From Thermus hydrothermalis (GTDB lineage: Bacteria > Deinococcota > Deinococci > Deinococcales > Thermaceae): a DNA stretch of 64,000 bases. Shown one piece after another: positions 35,061-53,365 of this stretch. The translations under genes were made by a program, and so were the position numbers. The notes under the pieces are model-generated. The model saw only the letters and a program-made list of their open reading frames with translations. It searched no databases and was not told the DNA's origin. Numbering within the stretch: position 1 is the stretch's first letter; each line of letters opens with the position of its first letter. The stretch is taken from NCBI RefSeq assembly GCF_022760925.1, contig NZ_JAKTNT010000002.1, positions 1-64,000 on the forward strand, written 5' to 3'.

Positions 35061-37487
35061 ATGCTCAAGGGCGAAGGCCCTGGTCCCTTGCCGCCCCTCC
35101 TCCAGCAGTACGTGGAGCTTCGGGACCGCTACCCGGACTACCTCCTCCTCTTCCAGGTGGGGGACTTCTACGAGTGCTTCGGCGAGGATGCGGAGAGGCT
35201 CGCCCGCGCCCTGGGCCTTGTCCTCACCCACAAGACCAGCAAGGACTTCACCACTCCCATGGCGGGCATCCCCATCCGGGCTTTTGACGCCTACGCCGAA
35301 CGCCTCCTAAAGATGGGCTTCCGCCTGGCGGTGGCCGACCAGGTGGAGCCGGCGGAGGAGGCGGAGGGGCTGGTGCGGCGGGAGGTGACCCAGCTCCTCA
35401 CCCCCGGCACCCTGGTCCAGGAAACCCTCTTGCCCCGGGAGGCCAACTACCTGGCGGCCATCGCCACGGGGGACGGGTGGGGGCTTGCCTTTTTGGACGT
35501 GTCCACGGGGGAGTTCAAGGGCACTTTGCTTAAGAGCAAAAGCGCCCTTTACGACGAGCTTTTCCGCCACCGCCCTGCGGAGGTCCTCTTGAGCCCCGAG
35601 CTCCGGGAGAACGAGGCCTTCGTGGCCGAGTTCCAAAAACGCTTCCCCGTGATGCTTTCTGAGGCCCCTTTTGAGCCCGAAGGGGAAGGCCCCTTGGCCC
35701 TCAGGCGGGCCCAGGGGGCGCTTCTCGCCTACGCCCGCGCCACCCAGGGCGGGGCCCTGAGCGTGCGGCCCTTCCGCGCCTACGACCCCGGGGCCTTCAT
35801 GCGCCTGCCCGAGGCTACCTTGCGGGCTTTGGAGGTCTTTGAGCCCCTGAGGGGCCAGGACACCCTCTTTGGCGTCCTGGACGAGACGAGGACCGCCCCG
35901 GGCAGGCGGCTCTTGCAGAGCTGGCTCCGCCATCCCCTTCTGGAACGGGGCCCCTTGGAGGCCCGGTTGGACCGGGTGGAGCGCTTCGTGGGGGATGGGG
36001 CCCTGAGGGAGGGGGTGCGGCGGCTCCTTTTCCGCCTGGCGGACCTGGAGCGGCTCGCCACCCGCCTGGAGCTCGGCCGGGCTGGCCCTAAAGACCTGGC
36101 CGCCCTCAGGCGGAGCCTGGAGATCCTCCCCGAGGTCAAGGCCCTTCTAGGGGAGGAGGTGCTTCTTCCCGACCTGGGCGCCTTGCTAGAAGAGCTCGAG
36201 GCGGCCCTGGTGGACGAGCCTCCCCTGAAGCTTTCCGAGGGGGGGCTTATCCGCGAGGGGTATGACCCCGAGCTGGACGCCCTGAGGCGGGAGCACGCCC
36301 AGGGGGTGGCCTACTTCCTGGAGCTGGAGCAAAGGGAAAGGGAGCGCACGGGTATACCCACCCTCAAGGTGGGCTACAACGCCGTCTTCGGCTACTACCT
36401 CGAGGTCACCCGCCCCTACTACGAGCGGGTGCCCAAGGAGTACCGGGCGGTGCAGACCCTCAAGGACCGGCAGCGCTACACCCTGCCGGAGATGAAGGAA
36501 AGGGAAAGGGAGCTCTACCGCCTCGAGGCCCTGATCCGAAGGCGGGAGGAGGAGGTCTTCCTGGCGGTGCGGGAGCGGGCGAAAAGGGACGTGGAGGCCC
36601 TAAGGGAGGCGGCCCGGGTCTTGGCGGAACTGGACGTCTTCGCCGCCCTGGCCGAGGTGGCGGTGCGCCACGGCTACACGAGGCCCCGCTTTGGGGAAAG
36701 GCTTTCCATCCGGGCGGGGCGCCACCCCGTGGTGGAAAGGCGCACGGAGTTCGTGCCCAACGACCTGGAGATGGCCCACGAGCTCGTCCTGGTCACGGGG
36801 CCCAACATGGCGGGCAAGAGCACCTTCCTCCGCCAGACGGCCCTCATCGCCTTGCTCGCCCAAATAGGGAGCTTCGTGCCGGCGGAAGCGGCGGAGCTTC
36901 CCCTTTTTGACCGCATCCTCACCCGCATCGGGGCCTCCGACGACCTGGCGGGGGGGAAGAGCACCTTCATGGTGGAGATGGAGGAGGTGGCCCTCATCCT
37001 CAAGGAAGCCACGGGGAAAAGCCTCGTCCTCCTGGACGAGGTGGGCCGGGGCACCAGCAGCCTGGACGGCCTCGCCATCGCCACCGCCGTGGCGGAGGCC
37101 CTGCACGAAAGGCGGTGCTACGCCCTCTTCGCCACCCACTACTTTGAGCTCACCGCCCTCTCCCTGCCCCGCCTGAAGAACCTCCACGTGGCGGCCAAGG
37201 AGGAGGAAGGCGGGCTCGTCTTCTACCACCAGGTCCTTCCCGGGCCCGCCTCCAAAAGCTATGGGGTGGAGGTGGCCCGGATGGCGGGCCTTCCTGAGGG
37301 GGTGGTGGAGCGGGCCAAGGCCCTCCTCCAGGCCATGGCGGCCCGGCGGGAAGGGGCTTGGGAGGAGGTCTTGGAGCGGCTTCTTTCCCTGGACCCCGAC
37401 CGCCTCACCCCCCTCGAGGCCCTTAAGCTCCTCCACGAGCTCAAGGCCTTGGCCCTGGGGGCGCCCTTGGGTAGCATGAAGGGGTGA
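35061..37487 (+). CDS. mutS: DNA mismatch repair protein MutS
   Basis: An 808-residue MutS. The mismatch-recognition motif FYECFG (Phe-x-Glu) lies near residue 37; the connector, lever/clamp region and ATPase follow, with Walker A TGPNMAGKST near 583, FVPAEAAELPLFDRILTRIGASDDL (in part), LVLLDEVGRGTSSLDG and ATHYFELT. The C-terminal HTH tail is present. The text is very close to T. thermophilus and T. aquaticus MutS from memory. The ATG at 35061 follows TAACAT (35048-35053) by seven bases; a GTG two codons earlier is possible. The stop overlaps the mutL GTG. Confidence 0.97.
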   Translation: MLKGEGPGPLPPLLQQYVELRDRYPDYLLLFQVGDFYECFGEDAERLARALGLVLTHKTSKDFTTPMAGIPIRAFDAYAERLLKMGFRLAVADQVEPAEEAEGLVRREVTQLLTPGTLVQETLLPREANYLAAIATGDGWGLAFLDVSTGEFKGTLLKSKSALYDELFRHRPAEVLLSPELRENEAFVAEFQKRFPVMLSEAPFEPEGEGPLALRRAQGALLAYARATQGGALSVRPFRAYDPGAFMRLPEATLRALEVFEPLRGQDTLFGVLDETRTAPGRRLLQSWLRHPLLERGPLEARLDRVERFVGDGALREGVRRLLFRLADLERLATRLELGRAGPKDLAALRRSLEILPEVKALLGEEVLLPDLGALLEELEAALVDEPPLKLSEGGLIREGYDPELDALRREHAQGVAYFLELEQRERERTGIPTLKVGYNAVFGYYLEVTRPYYERVPKEYRAVQTLKDRQRYTLPEMKERERELYRLEALIRRREEEVFLAVRERAKRDVEALREAARVLAELDVFAALAEVAVRHGYTRPRFGERLSIRAGRHPVVERRTEFVPNDLEMAHELVLVTGPNMAGKSTFLRQTALIALLAQIGSFVPAEAAELPLFDRILTRIGASDDLAGGKSTFMVEMEEVALILKEATGKSLVLLDEVGRGTSSLDGLAIATAVAEALHERRCYALFATHYFELTALSLPRLKNLHVAAKEEEGGLVFYHQVLPGPASKSYGVEVARMAGLPEGVVERAKALLQAMAARREGAWEEVLERLLSLDPDRLTPLEALKLLHELKALALGAPLGSMKG

Positions 37488-39112
37488 TCCGCCCCTTGCC
37501 GCCCGAACTTAAGGGCCTCCTCGCCCGGGGCGAGGTGCTCCTTTCCGTGAGGGATGCGGTGCGGGAGCTCTTGGAAAACGCCCTGGACGCAGGGGCCAAG
37601 CGGGTGCGGGTGGAGCTTTTTGGCGGGGGCCTGGAAAGGCTCGTGGTGGAGGATGACGGGGAAGGCATCCCCTTGGAAGAGCTTTCCCTCGCCGTGGAGC
37701 CCTTTACCACCAGCAAGCTCCAAGACCCGAAGGCCATCCAAACCCTGGGCTTCCGGGGCCAGGCCCTTTACGCCCTGAGGCAGGCCGCCACCTTGCGCCT
37801 GCGCTCCCGGCCTAAGGGGCAGCTCGGGGGTGGGCTTCTGGTGGCCCGGGGGGATGCGGTGGAGGTGCGCCCTGTCCCCGCACCCCCCGGTACCCGGGTG
37901 GAGGTGGTGGGCCTCTTCGCCGGGGAGGGGCGGGACCCGGCGCGGGAGGTGCGGGAGGTCCAGGGGCTTCTCAAGCGTTACCTCCTCCACCACCCCCACC
38001 TCGTCCTCGCCTTTTTCGCCGAGGGGGAGGCTAGGCTCCTCTTCCCGGGGGCGGGGCTAAAGGAGGCGGCCCGCCTGGCCTTCGGCCGGGTGATGGCGGA
38101 GCGGCTTTTCCGGGTGGAACGGCGGGGGGAGGGGATGGCCTTTTCCGGGCTCCTTTCTGGGCCCCAGGTTTCCCGTACCCGGGAAGACGCCCTTTTCCTT
38201 GCGGTGAACGGCCGTCCCGTGGCCTTTCCCCCGGGGCTTCTCAAGGCGGTGCGCCGGGCCTACAAGGACCTCCTCCCCGAGGGGCACTACCCCGTGGGTG
38301 TCCTGAACCTGAGCCTTTCCCCAGGGTTGTACCGCCTGCGCCTGGACGCCAGGAAGGAGGAGGTGGCCCTAAGCGGGGAGGTGGAGGCCTTTGTGGAGGA
38401 GGGTATCCGGGAGGCCTTGGCGGGGCGGAACCTGGTCCGGCTCCTTCCGGAGCCCAAGCCCCTTGCCCCCCTTACCCCCCCCACGCCCTCGGGGCTTCCC
38501 CGGCTCCGCTACCTGGGCCAGTTCCGGGATAGCTACCTCTTGGCGGAAGGGGGGGACACCCTCTACGTGGTGGACCAGCACGCCGCCCACGAGCGCATCC
38601 TCTACGAGGACTTCCTGCGCCGCCTGGAGGAGGGCCTAAGCCCCCTGCCCTATCCCGTCCTGGTGGAGCTCACGCCGGAGGAAGCCCTCCTTTTGCCGGG
38701 GGGGACGGAAAGGCTTTTCGCCTACGAGCCCTTCGGGCCCCATAGGGTGCGCCTCCTAAAGGCGCCCGCCTTTCTCCACCCCTACCCCCTTCTCCTCCCC
38801 GAGGTCTTCCGGGAGGCCTTGAGGGGGGAGGGGAGGAGCCTAAAGAACCTCCTCGCCCGCCTGGCCTGCCTCCCCGCCATCAAGGCGGGCCACCCCTTGG
38901 GGCAGGTGGCGGGGCAGGCCCTTTTGGACGCCCTCCTCGCCTGCGAGACCCCCTGGGTCTGCCCCCACGGCCGCCCCACCCTTTTGGCCCTTAAGGAGGA
39001 GGAGCTCATCCGCCGCTTTGGCCGGCGTTCGGGGGCGAAGGGAGGAGAAGAAGCCCGTCCTCATTGGCCACAAGAAAGCTTCCCGGAAGCACCGCTCCCC
39101 AAGGAAGGCTAA
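37484..39112 (+). CDS. mutL: DNA mismatch repair endonuclease MutL
   Basis: A 542-residue MutL. The GHKL ATPase has ELLENALDAGAKRV, VEDDGEGIP, TSKL and GFRGQALYAL. The C-terminal domain carries the endonuclease motif DQHAAHERILYEDF near residue 364 and the zinc-site CPHGRPT near 490, as in species without MutH. The start is GTG within GTGA of the mutS stop. A tail of about 25 residues after RRFGR is rich in Pro/Gly/Glu and lies antisense to rraA, overlapping it by 107 bases. Confidence 0.97.
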   Translation: MIRPLPPELKGLLARGEVLLSVRDAVRELLENALDAGAKRVRVELFGGGLERLVVEDDGEGIPLEELSLAVEPFTTSKLQDPKAIQTLGFRGQALYALRQAATLRLRSRPKGQLGGGLLVARGDAVEVRPVPAPPGTRVEVVGLFAGEGRDPAREVREVQGLLKRYLLHHPHLVLAFFAEGEARLLFPGAGLKEAARLAFGRVMAERLFRVERRGEGMAFSGLLSGPQVSRTREDALFLAVNGRPVAFPPGLLKAVRRAYKDLLPEGHYPVGVLNLSLSPGLYRLRLDARKEEVALSGEVEAFVEEGIREALAGRNLVRLLPEPKPLAPLTPPTPSGLPRLRYLGQFRDSYLLAEGGDTLYVVDQHAAHERILYEDFLRRLEEGLSPLPYPVLVELTPEEALLLPGGTERLFAYEPFGPHRVRLLKAPAFLHPYPLLLPEVFREALRGEGRSLKNLLARLACLPAIKAGHPLGQVAGQALLDALLACETPWVCPHGRPTLLALKEEELIRRFGRRSGAKGGEEARPHWPQESFPEAPLPKEG

Positions 39113-39500
39113 GGGGCACGTCCACCTCCCCCTTCCCCTCCTTGGCGCTCTTCTTGGGGGTGGCGGCCAGGGCGAGGACGCCGATGGGGATGGCGGCGAG
39201 TTCCGCCGTGTCCCGCACCGCCCCGTGCACCACCACCCCCTGCCAGCCCCTTTCCCAGGCGAGCCGGGCCAGGTTGCCTCCTAAGAGGGCGGTGCGCAGG
39301 GAGCCTTGCCCGTCCACGAAGAGGACCTGGCCTTCGCCCCCCTCTTCCAGTACCTGGCGGACGAGGGCGTTGTCCTCGAGGACCCTCAAGGTCCTCACCC
39401 GGCCGGAAAAGCGCCTTTTCCCCCCAAAGGCCTGGAAGACCATGGGCATTGCCACCGCCTCGGGGTGGAGGTCGGAGAGGTCCGTGGTGGAAAGCTCCAT
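39006..39500 (-). CDS. rraA: RraA-like protein (HMG/CHA aldolase fold)
   Basis: A 164-residue RraA-family protein starting MELSTTDLSDLHPEAV. Family text: FGGKRRFSGRVRTLRVLEDN, LFVDGQGSLRTALLGGNLA with the oxaloacetate/Mg site Asp and Arg, and GVVVHGAVRDTAELA. RraA in E. coli inhibits RNase E, but many relatives are metal-dependent 4-hydroxy-4-methyl-2-oxoglutarate or oxaloacetate lyases, and the latter role is likelier here. A TACTAT box six bases before the ATG marks a leaderless start. Its last 107 bases lie antisense to mutL. Confidence 0.88.
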   Translation of the reverse strand: MELSTTDLSDLHPEAVAMPMVFQAFGGKRRFSGRVRTLRVLEDNALVRQVLEEGGEGQVLFVDGQGSLRTALLGGNLARLAWERGWQGVVVHGAVRDTAELAAIPIGVLALAATPKKSAKEGKGEVDVPLSLPWGAVLPGSFLVANEDGLLLLPSPPNAGQSGG

Positions 39501-39518
39501 GGGGATATAGTAGCGGGC
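39501..39518. promoter_or_regulatory. rraA/purU divergent leaderless promoter with one shared -10
   Basis: The 18-base gap contains TATAGT (39506-39511), seven bases before the purU ATG, and on the other strand TACTAT (39507-39512), six bases before the rraA ATG. The hexamers overlap in five of six positions, so only one polymerase can use the site at a time. Confidence 0.6.
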
Positions 39519-40376
39519 ATGGAGGAGGCCCGTCTTCTCATCACCTGTCCGGACCGGCCCGGCATCGTGGCGGCCGTTTCCGGGTTCCTTTACGCCCACG
39601 GGGCCAACGTCACGGACCTGCAGCAGCACTCCACGGACCCGGAAGGGGGCGTCTTCTTCATGCGCCTCGCCTTCACCACCCCCCACCTGGACCTTTCCCG
39701 CCCGGCCCTGGAGCGGGCCTTCCAGGAGGTGGTGGCGGAGCGCTTCGGCATGGCATGGCGCCTGGCCTACGCCTCGGAGAGGAAGCGGGCGGCCATTTTG
39801 GTGTCCAAACCCGCCCACGCCCTTTTGGAACTCCTTTGGCGCTACCGGGTGGGGGAGCTTCCCATGGACCTGCGCCTCGTGATCTCCAACCACCCCGACC
39901 ACCGGGAGGAGGTGGAGCGCTTCGGCATCCCCTACCACCACGTGCCGGTGGAGGCGGGGCGGAAGGAGGAGGCGGAGGAGAGGATCCTCGCCCTTCTGGA
40001 GGAGGAAAAGGTGGAGCTCGTGATCCTCGCCCGCTACATGCAGATCCTCTCCCCCCGGTTCGTGGCCCGCTACCCCATGCGCATCCTCAACATCCACCAC
40101 TCCTTCCTGCCCGCCTTCGCCGGGGCCAACCCCTACCGCCAGGCCTACGAGCGGGGGGTGAAGCTCATCGGGGCCACGGCCCACTACGTCACGGAGGAGC
40201 TGGACGCCGGCCCCATCATTGAGCAGGACGTGGTCCGGGTCTCCCACCGCCACTCGGTGGCGGAGATGCGGCGGCTTGGGCAGGAGTTGGAGCGCACGGT
40301 CTTGGCCCGGGCGGTGCGCTGGCACCTGGAGGACCGCATCCTGATCCACGGCAACAAGACCGTGGTCTTCGTCTAA
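39519..40376 (+). CDS. purU: formyltetrahydrofolate deformylase
   Basis: PurU hydrolyses 10-formyl-THF to formate and THF. The 285-residue protein has an N-terminal ACT domain (LLITCPDRPGIVAAVSGFLY, about 5-75) and a C-terminal formyl transferase domain with RYMQILSP, LNIHHSFLPAFAGANPYRQAY (in part), GATAHYVTEELDAGPIIEQD, including the Asn-His-Asp catalytic set. The ATG at 39519 is chosen because upstream in-frame residues overlap rraA and the promoter. Confidence 0.95.
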   Translation: MEEARLLITCPDRPGIVAAVSGFLYAHGANVTDLQQHSTDPEGGVFFMRLAFTTPHLDLSRPALERAFQEVVAERFGMAWRLAYASERKRAAILVSKPAHALLELLWRYRVGELPMDLRLVISNHPDHREEVERFGIPYHHVPVEAGRKEEAEERILALLEEEKVELVILARYMQILSPRFVARYPMRILNIHHSFLPAFAGANPYRQAYERGVKLIGATAHYVTEELDAGPIIEQDVVRVSHRHSVAEMRRLGQELERTVLARAVRWHLEDRILIHGNKTVVFV

Positions 40377-51433: not shown

Positions 51434-52273
51434 CTAACACGCCTTTCCCCGGTTGAAAAAGTCCCGGAAGAAGCTTAGGGCCTTGGGGAGTTTCTCCCGT
51501 AGGGCCTCGAGGAAGCCTTCGGGGTACTTGGTCCTAAACCAGTGGAGGTCGTGGAGGTAGGTGAGGGGAACGTAGAAGGCGAGCCTTTCCCGCACCTCGG
51601 CGGGGTAAAAGCGGGCGATGCGAAGGAGGGCCTCCCGGGCGGCCTCTTCCCCCAGGAGGTCCAGGCTTCCCGTCTTGAGGAGGGCCAGGTCGCGGGCGGG
51701 GTCGTCGCCCCCGGAGCGCACCCAGTCCACCAGGAGGACCTCGGGGCCCTCTTCCTGAGGGGCCTTCACCAGGAGGTTCCCCGCCCAGGCGTCCCGGTGG
51801 CAGAAGCGCCTTTCCACCCCTGCCGCCAGGCCCACCTCCCGCTTGAGGCGCTGGATGAGGTCCAGGGCCTCGGGAATACCGTGGAGGCTTTCCGCAAAGC
51901 GCTCTAGCCTTGCTAAAAGCTCCGCCTCCTCCACGTACCCGGGCTCGGGGAGGCGGTGGAGGGAGAGGAAGAGGTGGGCGAGGGCGGCCAGGGTCTTGGG
52001 GGTGAAGGCCTCGGGGGAGAAGGGCCTGCCGGGAAAGCGGCGGGTGATGAGGACCCCGTGGCCCTCCACCTCCGCCACCCCCAGGACGAAGCTTCCCAGG
52101 CCCGCCCGGGCCATGCGGCGGGCCTCGAGGGCGGCGAGGTGCGCCTCTTCGGGGCGGTAGACCTTGTAGACCCTTGCCCCGTCCCCGTACACCCGGGCCT
52201 CAAACCCCCCTAAGGGGGTGAGGTGGGGGAGGGTTTCGGGGGAGAGGAAGCCCTTCAGGGCGGAAAGCGCCAC
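51434..52273 (-). CDS. aminoglycoside phosphotransferase-like kinase (APH superfamily)
   Basis: A 279-residue small-molecule kinase of the APH/choline kinase fold. The Brenner motif is [12 protein letters not shown] near residue 178 and the metal Asp lies in [19 protein letters not shown]. The N-lobe is short ([20 protein letters not shown]). The GTG at 52273 is chosen because TAGAAT lies seven bases upstream within a divergent promoter; longer in-frame readings run through the opposite gene. The physiological substrate is unknown; drug resistance should not be assumed. Confidence 0.85.
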
Positions 52274-52291
52274 GGGGCTTATTCTAAGGCC
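52274..52291. promoter_or_regulatory. divergent leaderless promoter with one shared -10 (phosphotransferase/radical SAM)
   Basis: In an 18-base gap TATTCT (52280-52285) is six bases before the plus-strand GTG at 52292, and TAGAAT on the minus strand (52281-52286) is seven bases before the GTG at 52273. The hexamers overlap in five of six positions. Confidence 0.6.
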
Positions 52292-53365
52292 GTGGAGCTC
52301 CTTAGGCCCGAGGCCACGGTCCTCTCCTTGGGGGATAGGGTCCTCTCCTTTGACCGGGAGGGGCGGCTTTACCACTACTTCCGCCAGGGGGTGACCTACA
52401 AGCGGGCCCTGGACGGAAGCCTCCACCTGCGCTACCGGGAAGGAGAGAGGCGGAGGCAGACGCTTCCCCCGGAGGAGGCCCTCAGGGTCTACGGGGAAGC
52501 CCTGGCCTTGGCGGAGGCCCACCTCCAAGACCCTAAAAGGCGCCAGGAGGTCCTCCGCTGGACCCCGGAGGGCCTCCTGGACCCTAGGCCGTACCGGGAG
52601 GCCTACGCCTGGCCCGTCAGCATCCTGCCCCCCGACGCCTACCTCGCTGTGGTCCTCCAGGCCACCACGGGCTGCACCTGGAACCGCTGCGCCTTCTGTA
52701 GCTTTTACCAGGACCGCCCCTTCCAGGTGCGGGAGCCAAAGGCCTTCCAGGACCACATCGCCCGGGTAAAGGCCCTCTTGGGGGAGGGGCTTCGCCTGAG
52801 GAGGGGGGTTTTCCTGGCGGACGGGAACGCCTTGGCCCTAAAGGACCCCCTCCTTCCCCTTTTGGAGGCGGCGGGGCGGGCGTTTCCGGGGGAGCCCATC
52901 CTCGGCTTTCTGGACCTCTTCACGGGGATTAAGAAGGAGGCCTCCTGGTGGGAAAGGCTTCGGGCCCTGGGCCTGAGGCGGGTCTACCTGGGCCTGGAAA
53001 CGGGCCACGCCCCCCTCCTCGCCCTCCTCCGCAAGCCCGGCCACCCCCGGGAGGCCTTGCCCCTGGTGCGGGCCTTGAAGGGGGCGGGGCTTGGCGTGGG
53101 GGTGATCCTCATGGTGGGGGCCGGGGGGAGGCCCTTCGCCGAGGCCCACTTCCGGGAGAGCCTCGCCCTCCTCGCCGAGCTCCCCTTGGACCGGGAGGAT
53201 ATCGTCTACCTATCCCCTTTCCAGGAAACCCCAAAGACCCCCTACGCCGCCTTGGGTTTAGAGCCCCTCCCGGACGTGGAAGGGGAGCTTAAGGCCTGGG
53301 CGGAGGCCGTCCGGCGCCTGGGCCTCAGGGCGAGCCGGTACGATATCCGGGAGTTCCTCTACTGA
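52292..53365 (+). CDS. radical SAM protein (COG1032-like, CX4CX2C)
   Basis: A 357-residue radical SAM enzyme. The cluster motif is GCTWNRCAFCSFYQDRPF near residue 127, i.e. CX4CX2C rather than CX3CX2C, as in a known COG1032-type branch with GCSHNKCTFC-like text. Downstream are FLADGNALAL, GFLDLFTG, RVYLGLETGHAPLL and GVILMVGAGG of the TIM-barrel. The N-terminal about 110 residues are not recognised. The reaction is unknown. The GTG start is leaderless; the 3' end overlaps the CDGSH gene by seven bases. Confidence 0.85.
   Translation: MELLRPEATVLSLGDRVLSFDREGRLYHYFRQGVTYKRALDGSLHLRYREGERRRQTLPPEEALRVYGEALALAEAHLQDPKRRQEVLRWTPEGLLDPRPYREAYAWPVSILPPDAYLAVVLQATTGCTWNRCAFCSFYQDRPFQVREPKAFQDHIARVKALLGEGLRLRRGVFLADGNALALKDPLLPLLEAAGRAFPGEPILGFLDLFTGIKKEASWWERLRALGLRRVYLGLETGHAPLLALLRKPGHPREALPLVRALKGAGLGVGVILMVGAGGRPFAEAHFRESLALLAELPLDREDIVYLSPFQETPKTPYAALGLEPLPDVEGELKAWAEAVRRLGLRASRYDIREFLY

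Follow-up and report, generated by a model that had tools for sequence, protein, structure and literature searches.

A single symmetric -10 element, TATAGTA, is very likely the core of a bidirectional promoter that starts both rraA and purU, each as a leaderless or nearly leaderless mRNA. The element lies between the divergent start codons of the two genes in the window, the 64-kb stretch of DNA analysed as a whole here, and its arrangement recurs across the genus Thermus.

Table 1 Features of the rraA/purU gap and of a second shared site in the window.
Feature	Coordinates	Strand	Description	Basis
Intergenic gap rraA/purU	39501..39518		18 bp between divergent start codons; sequence GGGGATATAGTAGCGGGC	
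Symmetric -10 core TATAGTA (TANNNTA)	39506..39512		common to both predicted promoters	conservation
purU -10 hexamer TATAGT	39506..39511	+	predicted start 39518 or 39519 (A of ATG)	sequence
rraA -10 hexamer TACTAT	39507..39512	-	predicted start 39500 (A of rraA ATG)	sequence
rraA, left arm	39006..39500	-	RraA family, 164 aa	
purU, right arm	39519..40376	+	formyltetrahydrofolate deformylase, 285 aa	
Second shared site	52271..52294		GTG/GTG divergent, 18-bp gap; core TATTCTA, reading TAGAATA on the opposite strand; sequence CACGGGGCTTATTCTAAGGCCGTG; flanked by genes for an APH-family phosphotransferase and a radical-SAM-like protein	

The left arm matches the RraA model NF006875 at 183 bits (cutoff 136) and the right arm the PurU model TIGR00655 at 400 bits (cutoff 286). 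The window belongs to Thermus; its nearest named relative is T. brockianus, whose purU is 100% identical. At its distal end, rraA overlaps tail to tail with a mutL-like open reading frame (37484-39112, plus strand) over ~107 bp (39006-39112), if both stops are right.

The first-pass annotation had described overlapping, oppositely oriented hexamers in this gap, which the sequence bears out: TACTAT, read from 39512 to 39507, ends 6 nt before the rraA ATG (39500-39498), and TATAGT ends 7 nt before the ATG of purU at 39519. Both distances fall within the 6-7 nt that separate TANNNT from the start codon at leaderless promoters. The two hexamers overlap at five positions, and the -11A/-7T pairs, located at 39507 and 39511, are common to both strands, providing reciprocal -7/-11 pairing. 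TANNNTA itself is scarce, with 22 occurrences in the whole window. Predicted starts lie 18-19 bp apart, the 18-bp distance corresponding to 39500 and 39518 at standard -10 spacing. No Shine-Dalgarno-consensus 4-mer was found in the 20 nt preceding either start. A Shine-Dalgarno-like run is present just inside purU, which opens with ATGGAGGAGG (39519-39530); it is not kept in other Thermus genomes, where ATGGAAGAGG and ATGGACGAGG are found instead. A sigma-70 scan and manual search returned no -35 hexamer on either side (best match 3/6), and manual search no extended -10.

Given the geometry, conservation and recurrence of the site, we infer that RNA polymerase carrying the housekeeping sigma factor would bind the core in either orientation and melt identical base pairs each time. 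One orientation would yield an rraA transcript beginning at the A of its ATG, at the standard six-base -10 spacing; the other would yield a purU transcript beginning at 39518 or, likelier by purine preference, at the A of the ATG. Since neither mRNA would have room for a ribosome binding site, 70S ribosomes would be expected to begin at the 5'-terminal AUG. The 18-bp geometry would pair -7 of one promoter with -11 of the opposite promoter and, as a presumed consequence, the A of each start codon would put a T near -18/-19 of the opposing promoter—a base reported in PMC10268837 to aid the activity of bidirectional promoters. Because a -35 and an extended -10 are absent on either side, transcription of one arm might be weak or require assistance.

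All 26 Thermus genomes with an identified purU have TATAGTA unchanged, within flanks whose sequence varies and whose length differs by 1 bp: the spacers are 5 + 6 in 21 of these genomes, 6 + 6 in two and 5 + 7 in two, and the linkage is lost in the remaining one. Flank indels never break the core. Across the same genomes, just 26 of the 95 four-fold degenerate sites of purU (27%) are invariant, a rate at which seven consecutive invariant columns would arise by chance with a probability of ~1e-4 if sites are independent; neutrality alone is therefore an improbable explanation. The linkage of rraA and purU is otherwise kept throughout Thermus and in the sister genus (genome G049), where the gap reads CAT-GGGCTT-TATTCTA-GGGGA-ATG, with substitutions at two core positions and shifted spacers, and with TANNNTA and the 18-bp length kept. 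The arrangement was absent from two Meiothermus-type purU loci with the upstream region read in the right orientation (L165 and L168), and in two genomes tested outside Thermus (G027 and G035) rraA was absent or represented by just a distant relative.

Conservation of this kind could have another cause, were TATAGTA a regulator's operator or coding sequence of a gene that starts farther upstream. The central three bases of the core are constant within Thermus, which is also compatible with the binding site of another protein, and the reading frames of both genes are open across the gap. We nevertheless regard an operator or coding role as highly improbable. The dyad stops at TA/TA, and an operator was rejected since no extended dyad exists at rraA/purU. 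Indels on both sides shift the core between frames, so that reading frame cannot be what protects it, and a coding cause was likewise rejected; the rraA start is moreover corroborated by the T. thermophilus homologue of known structure, 1J3L, whose residue 1 aligns with it. Both roles are further opposed by the change from TATAGTA to TATTCTA in the sister genus and by the observation that TANNNTA and its spacing are all that many unrelated gene pairs have in common.

The Thermus genome without the linkage (G001) contains an IS982-family insertion that split the pair into two loci (L210 and L097), with the caveat that the assembly is a draft and places them on separate contigs. The rraA side consists of IS982-family transposase remnants ending in GGTAGCAACTTGGGT, followed by TACTATATCCCT-ATG, and the purU side of GGTGGCAACTCGGGT, followed by TATAGTAGCCCCT-ATG; the IS ends at the two halves match as inverted repeats. 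The target duplication measures 7 bp and is exactly TATAGTA. Because the duplicated target is the core itself, rraA and purU were each left with a full -10, correctly spaced from the start codon.

The insertion bears on whether one gene alone uses this -10, with the other transcribed from a promoter inside its neighbor and the second hexamer a by-product of the near-symmetry of TANNNT. Such an origin is conceivable in that TANNNT is nearly self-complementary, hence the second hexamer needs one more fixed base, and a -35 is missing on both sides. Yet that one base is A at 26-30% of ordinary solitary leaderless promoters (1.2 Mb of Thermus genome G008) and always A at rraA/purU (26/26 Thermus genomes and the sister genus), as expected if it is fixed because it doubles as the T that opens the opposite hexamer. 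Use by a single gene is also difficult to reconcile with the retention of a full -10 by both genes after the IS982 insertion, and with the lack of a Shine-Dalgarno match at either; we consider it unlikely. The proposal of the first-pass annotation that one -10 serves two leaderless genes is thus supported by comparative evidence—conserved hexamers, indels that spare the core, full copies left by IS982—with its strict form relaxed to transcripts that would be leaderless or start within 1 nt of the ATG.

The arrangement extends well beyond this locus. Across 27 Thermus genomes, CAY-N5-TANNNTA-N6-RTG was matched 106 times, as compared to 2 matches of the reversed pattern. Allowing spacers of 5-7 returned 552 sites in the same genomes (13-30 per genome), against 53 for the reversed pattern and 191 for wrong spacers of 9-11, all of these genus-wide counts including one-sided sites. 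A repeated element containing CACGGGGCTGGCCTACCGTAGCAAAGACACGGTG (~10 copies in genome G003, for instance at C3:36503-36536) raises the wrong-spacing control count of that genome. In G008, TANNNT is most frequent at distances of 6-7 nt upstream of coding starts (105 and 72 occurrences, versus ~16 at other spacings); half of this genome (1.2 Mb) was too small for a clean spacing table, and pattern counts over 27 genomes were therefore used. Among Thermaceae outside Thermus, enrichment was weak except in the sister genus, and pattern counts in many genomes of the order's other families revealed no such sites.

The genome of the window itself harbors 21 matching sites, nine of which have convincing genes on both sides; the other, one-sided sites are probably ordinary leaderless promoters facing a chance CAY. 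Besides rraA/purU, the recurring pairs comprise the APH-family phosphotransferase and radical-SAM-like genes, priA/MFS, dnaX/unknown, phosphatase/YegS-type kinase, miaA/hsp20, mnmC2/DUF554-like, a ManA-like gene/phosphoglucose isomerase, and serine dehydratase beta/secreted protein, where the names priA, ManA-like, DUF554-like, secreted protein and radical-SAM were assigned partly or wholly by reading the sequences. The GTG/GTG site of the phosphotransferase pair, the second in the window, is also kept in several Thermus genomes, and near-identical miaA/hsp20 and mnmC2/DUF554-like sites are present in many or most of them. The miaA/hsp20 site (L221; CATGCCCTTAGCATAAGGGATGTG) is almost unchanged across Thermus and contains a perfect dyad, CCCTTA-GCA-TAAGGG, longer than a -10 alone requires; this dyad may be an operator as well, or may reflect preferences of the -10 flanks. 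The arrangement thus looks like a genus-wide design, and the notion that rraA/purU is exceptional is not supported: its genome has about nine clear pairs in all, and PMC3898074 describes a leaderless divergent pair in Mycobacterium tuberculosis.

Partner genes across the recurring pairs lack an obvious common function. This favors genome compaction as a sufficient account, whereby leaderless genes that abut divergently cannot avoid overlapping -10s, with no regulatory role attached. Such an account accepts the shared promoter and denies it a regulatory purpose, so both can hold together, and we judge it reasonably probable. It is in line with the lack of basal competition at the bidirectional promoters tested in Escherichia coli (PMC12825309). 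The linkage kept across Thermus and the sister genus speaks against compaction alone, although it may just reflect that neither gene can move without promoter loss.

The same source bears on a further suggestion of the first-pass annotation, that the shared element makes the two genes mutually exclusive. Polymerase occupies just one orientation at any instant, blocking the other. In PMC12825309, however, the two directions of five bidirectional promoters tested in E. coli competed little at basal activity, which was too low for this, and did compete once one direction was strongly activated; functional mutual exclusion is thus unsupported. Since rraA/purU has no -35 on either side, weak basal activity with little competition is the better guess here.

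Taken together, we lean towards a shared promoter as the defining feature of a conserved class in Thermus: about ten divergent leaderless pairs per genome would each rest on one symmetric 7-bp -10, with everything needed to start transcription and translation of two genes contained in a segment of ~18 bp, and each start codon also providing the opposite promoter with its upstream T. Departure of either gene would break the promoter of its partner, and the pairing would be kept for that reason. The rraA/purU gap may accordingly represent the smallest possible two-gene control region. The recurring pairs supply a set of conserved, naturally occurring test cases and point to a possible mechanism that holds unrelated genes adjacent, given that a shared promoter can be split only through duplication of its -10, an outcome exemplified by the IS982 insertion.

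The literature searched, with most subscription papers outside its reach, did not describe any pair of leaderless genes driven by one common -10, and yielded no 5'-end map for Thermus. The closest relatives are the symmetric -10 bidirectional promoters of Warman, Grainger and colleagues (PMC12825309, PMC10268837). This promoter class is characterized by mapped starts on opposite strands 7-25 bp apart, and a symmetric -10 with starts 18 bp apart is its commonest configuration; as at rraA/purU, one -10 is read both ways with reciprocal -7T/-11A. The promoters in E. coli and Salmonella are defined by mapped starts, whereas those of rraA/purU are predicted from sequence. Leaderless mRNAs are not treated in the available text of either paper (the word 'leaderless' does not occur in that of PMC10268837), and rraA/purU differs in that the start codons themselves lie at the predicted +1 on both sides.

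A second relative is the '-10 next to ORF' promoter of Deinococcus-Thermus (PMC12340547, PMC3160421), which likewise has TANNNT 6-7 nt before the start and no Shine-Dalgarno. In D. radiodurans, a -10 adjoining an open reading frame acts as a promoter, as demonstrated by mutation (PMC12340547), and a computational estimate puts the leaderless fraction of genes in Deinococcus-Thermus near 40% (PMC3160421). These promoters are described as one-directional, the terms 'bidirectional', 'divergent' and 'symmetr' being absent from PMC12340547.

The M. tuberculosis pair Rv1129c/prpD (PMC3898074) resembles rraA/purU in being divergent, with starts mapped to the start codons on both sides; the available part of that paper calls closely juxtaposed divergent promoters common and does not state a shared -10, and the phylum differs from that of Thermus. 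The divergent promoters of the EcoRV restriction-modification system (PMC5333194) are overlapping core promoters that admit one polymerase at a time, but their overlap is partial, the C transcript is not leaderless, and control is exerted by a C protein. Measured against these systems, the rraA/purU site fits a union of two published principles, the symmetric bidirectional -10 and the leaderless promoter of Deinococcus-Thermus.
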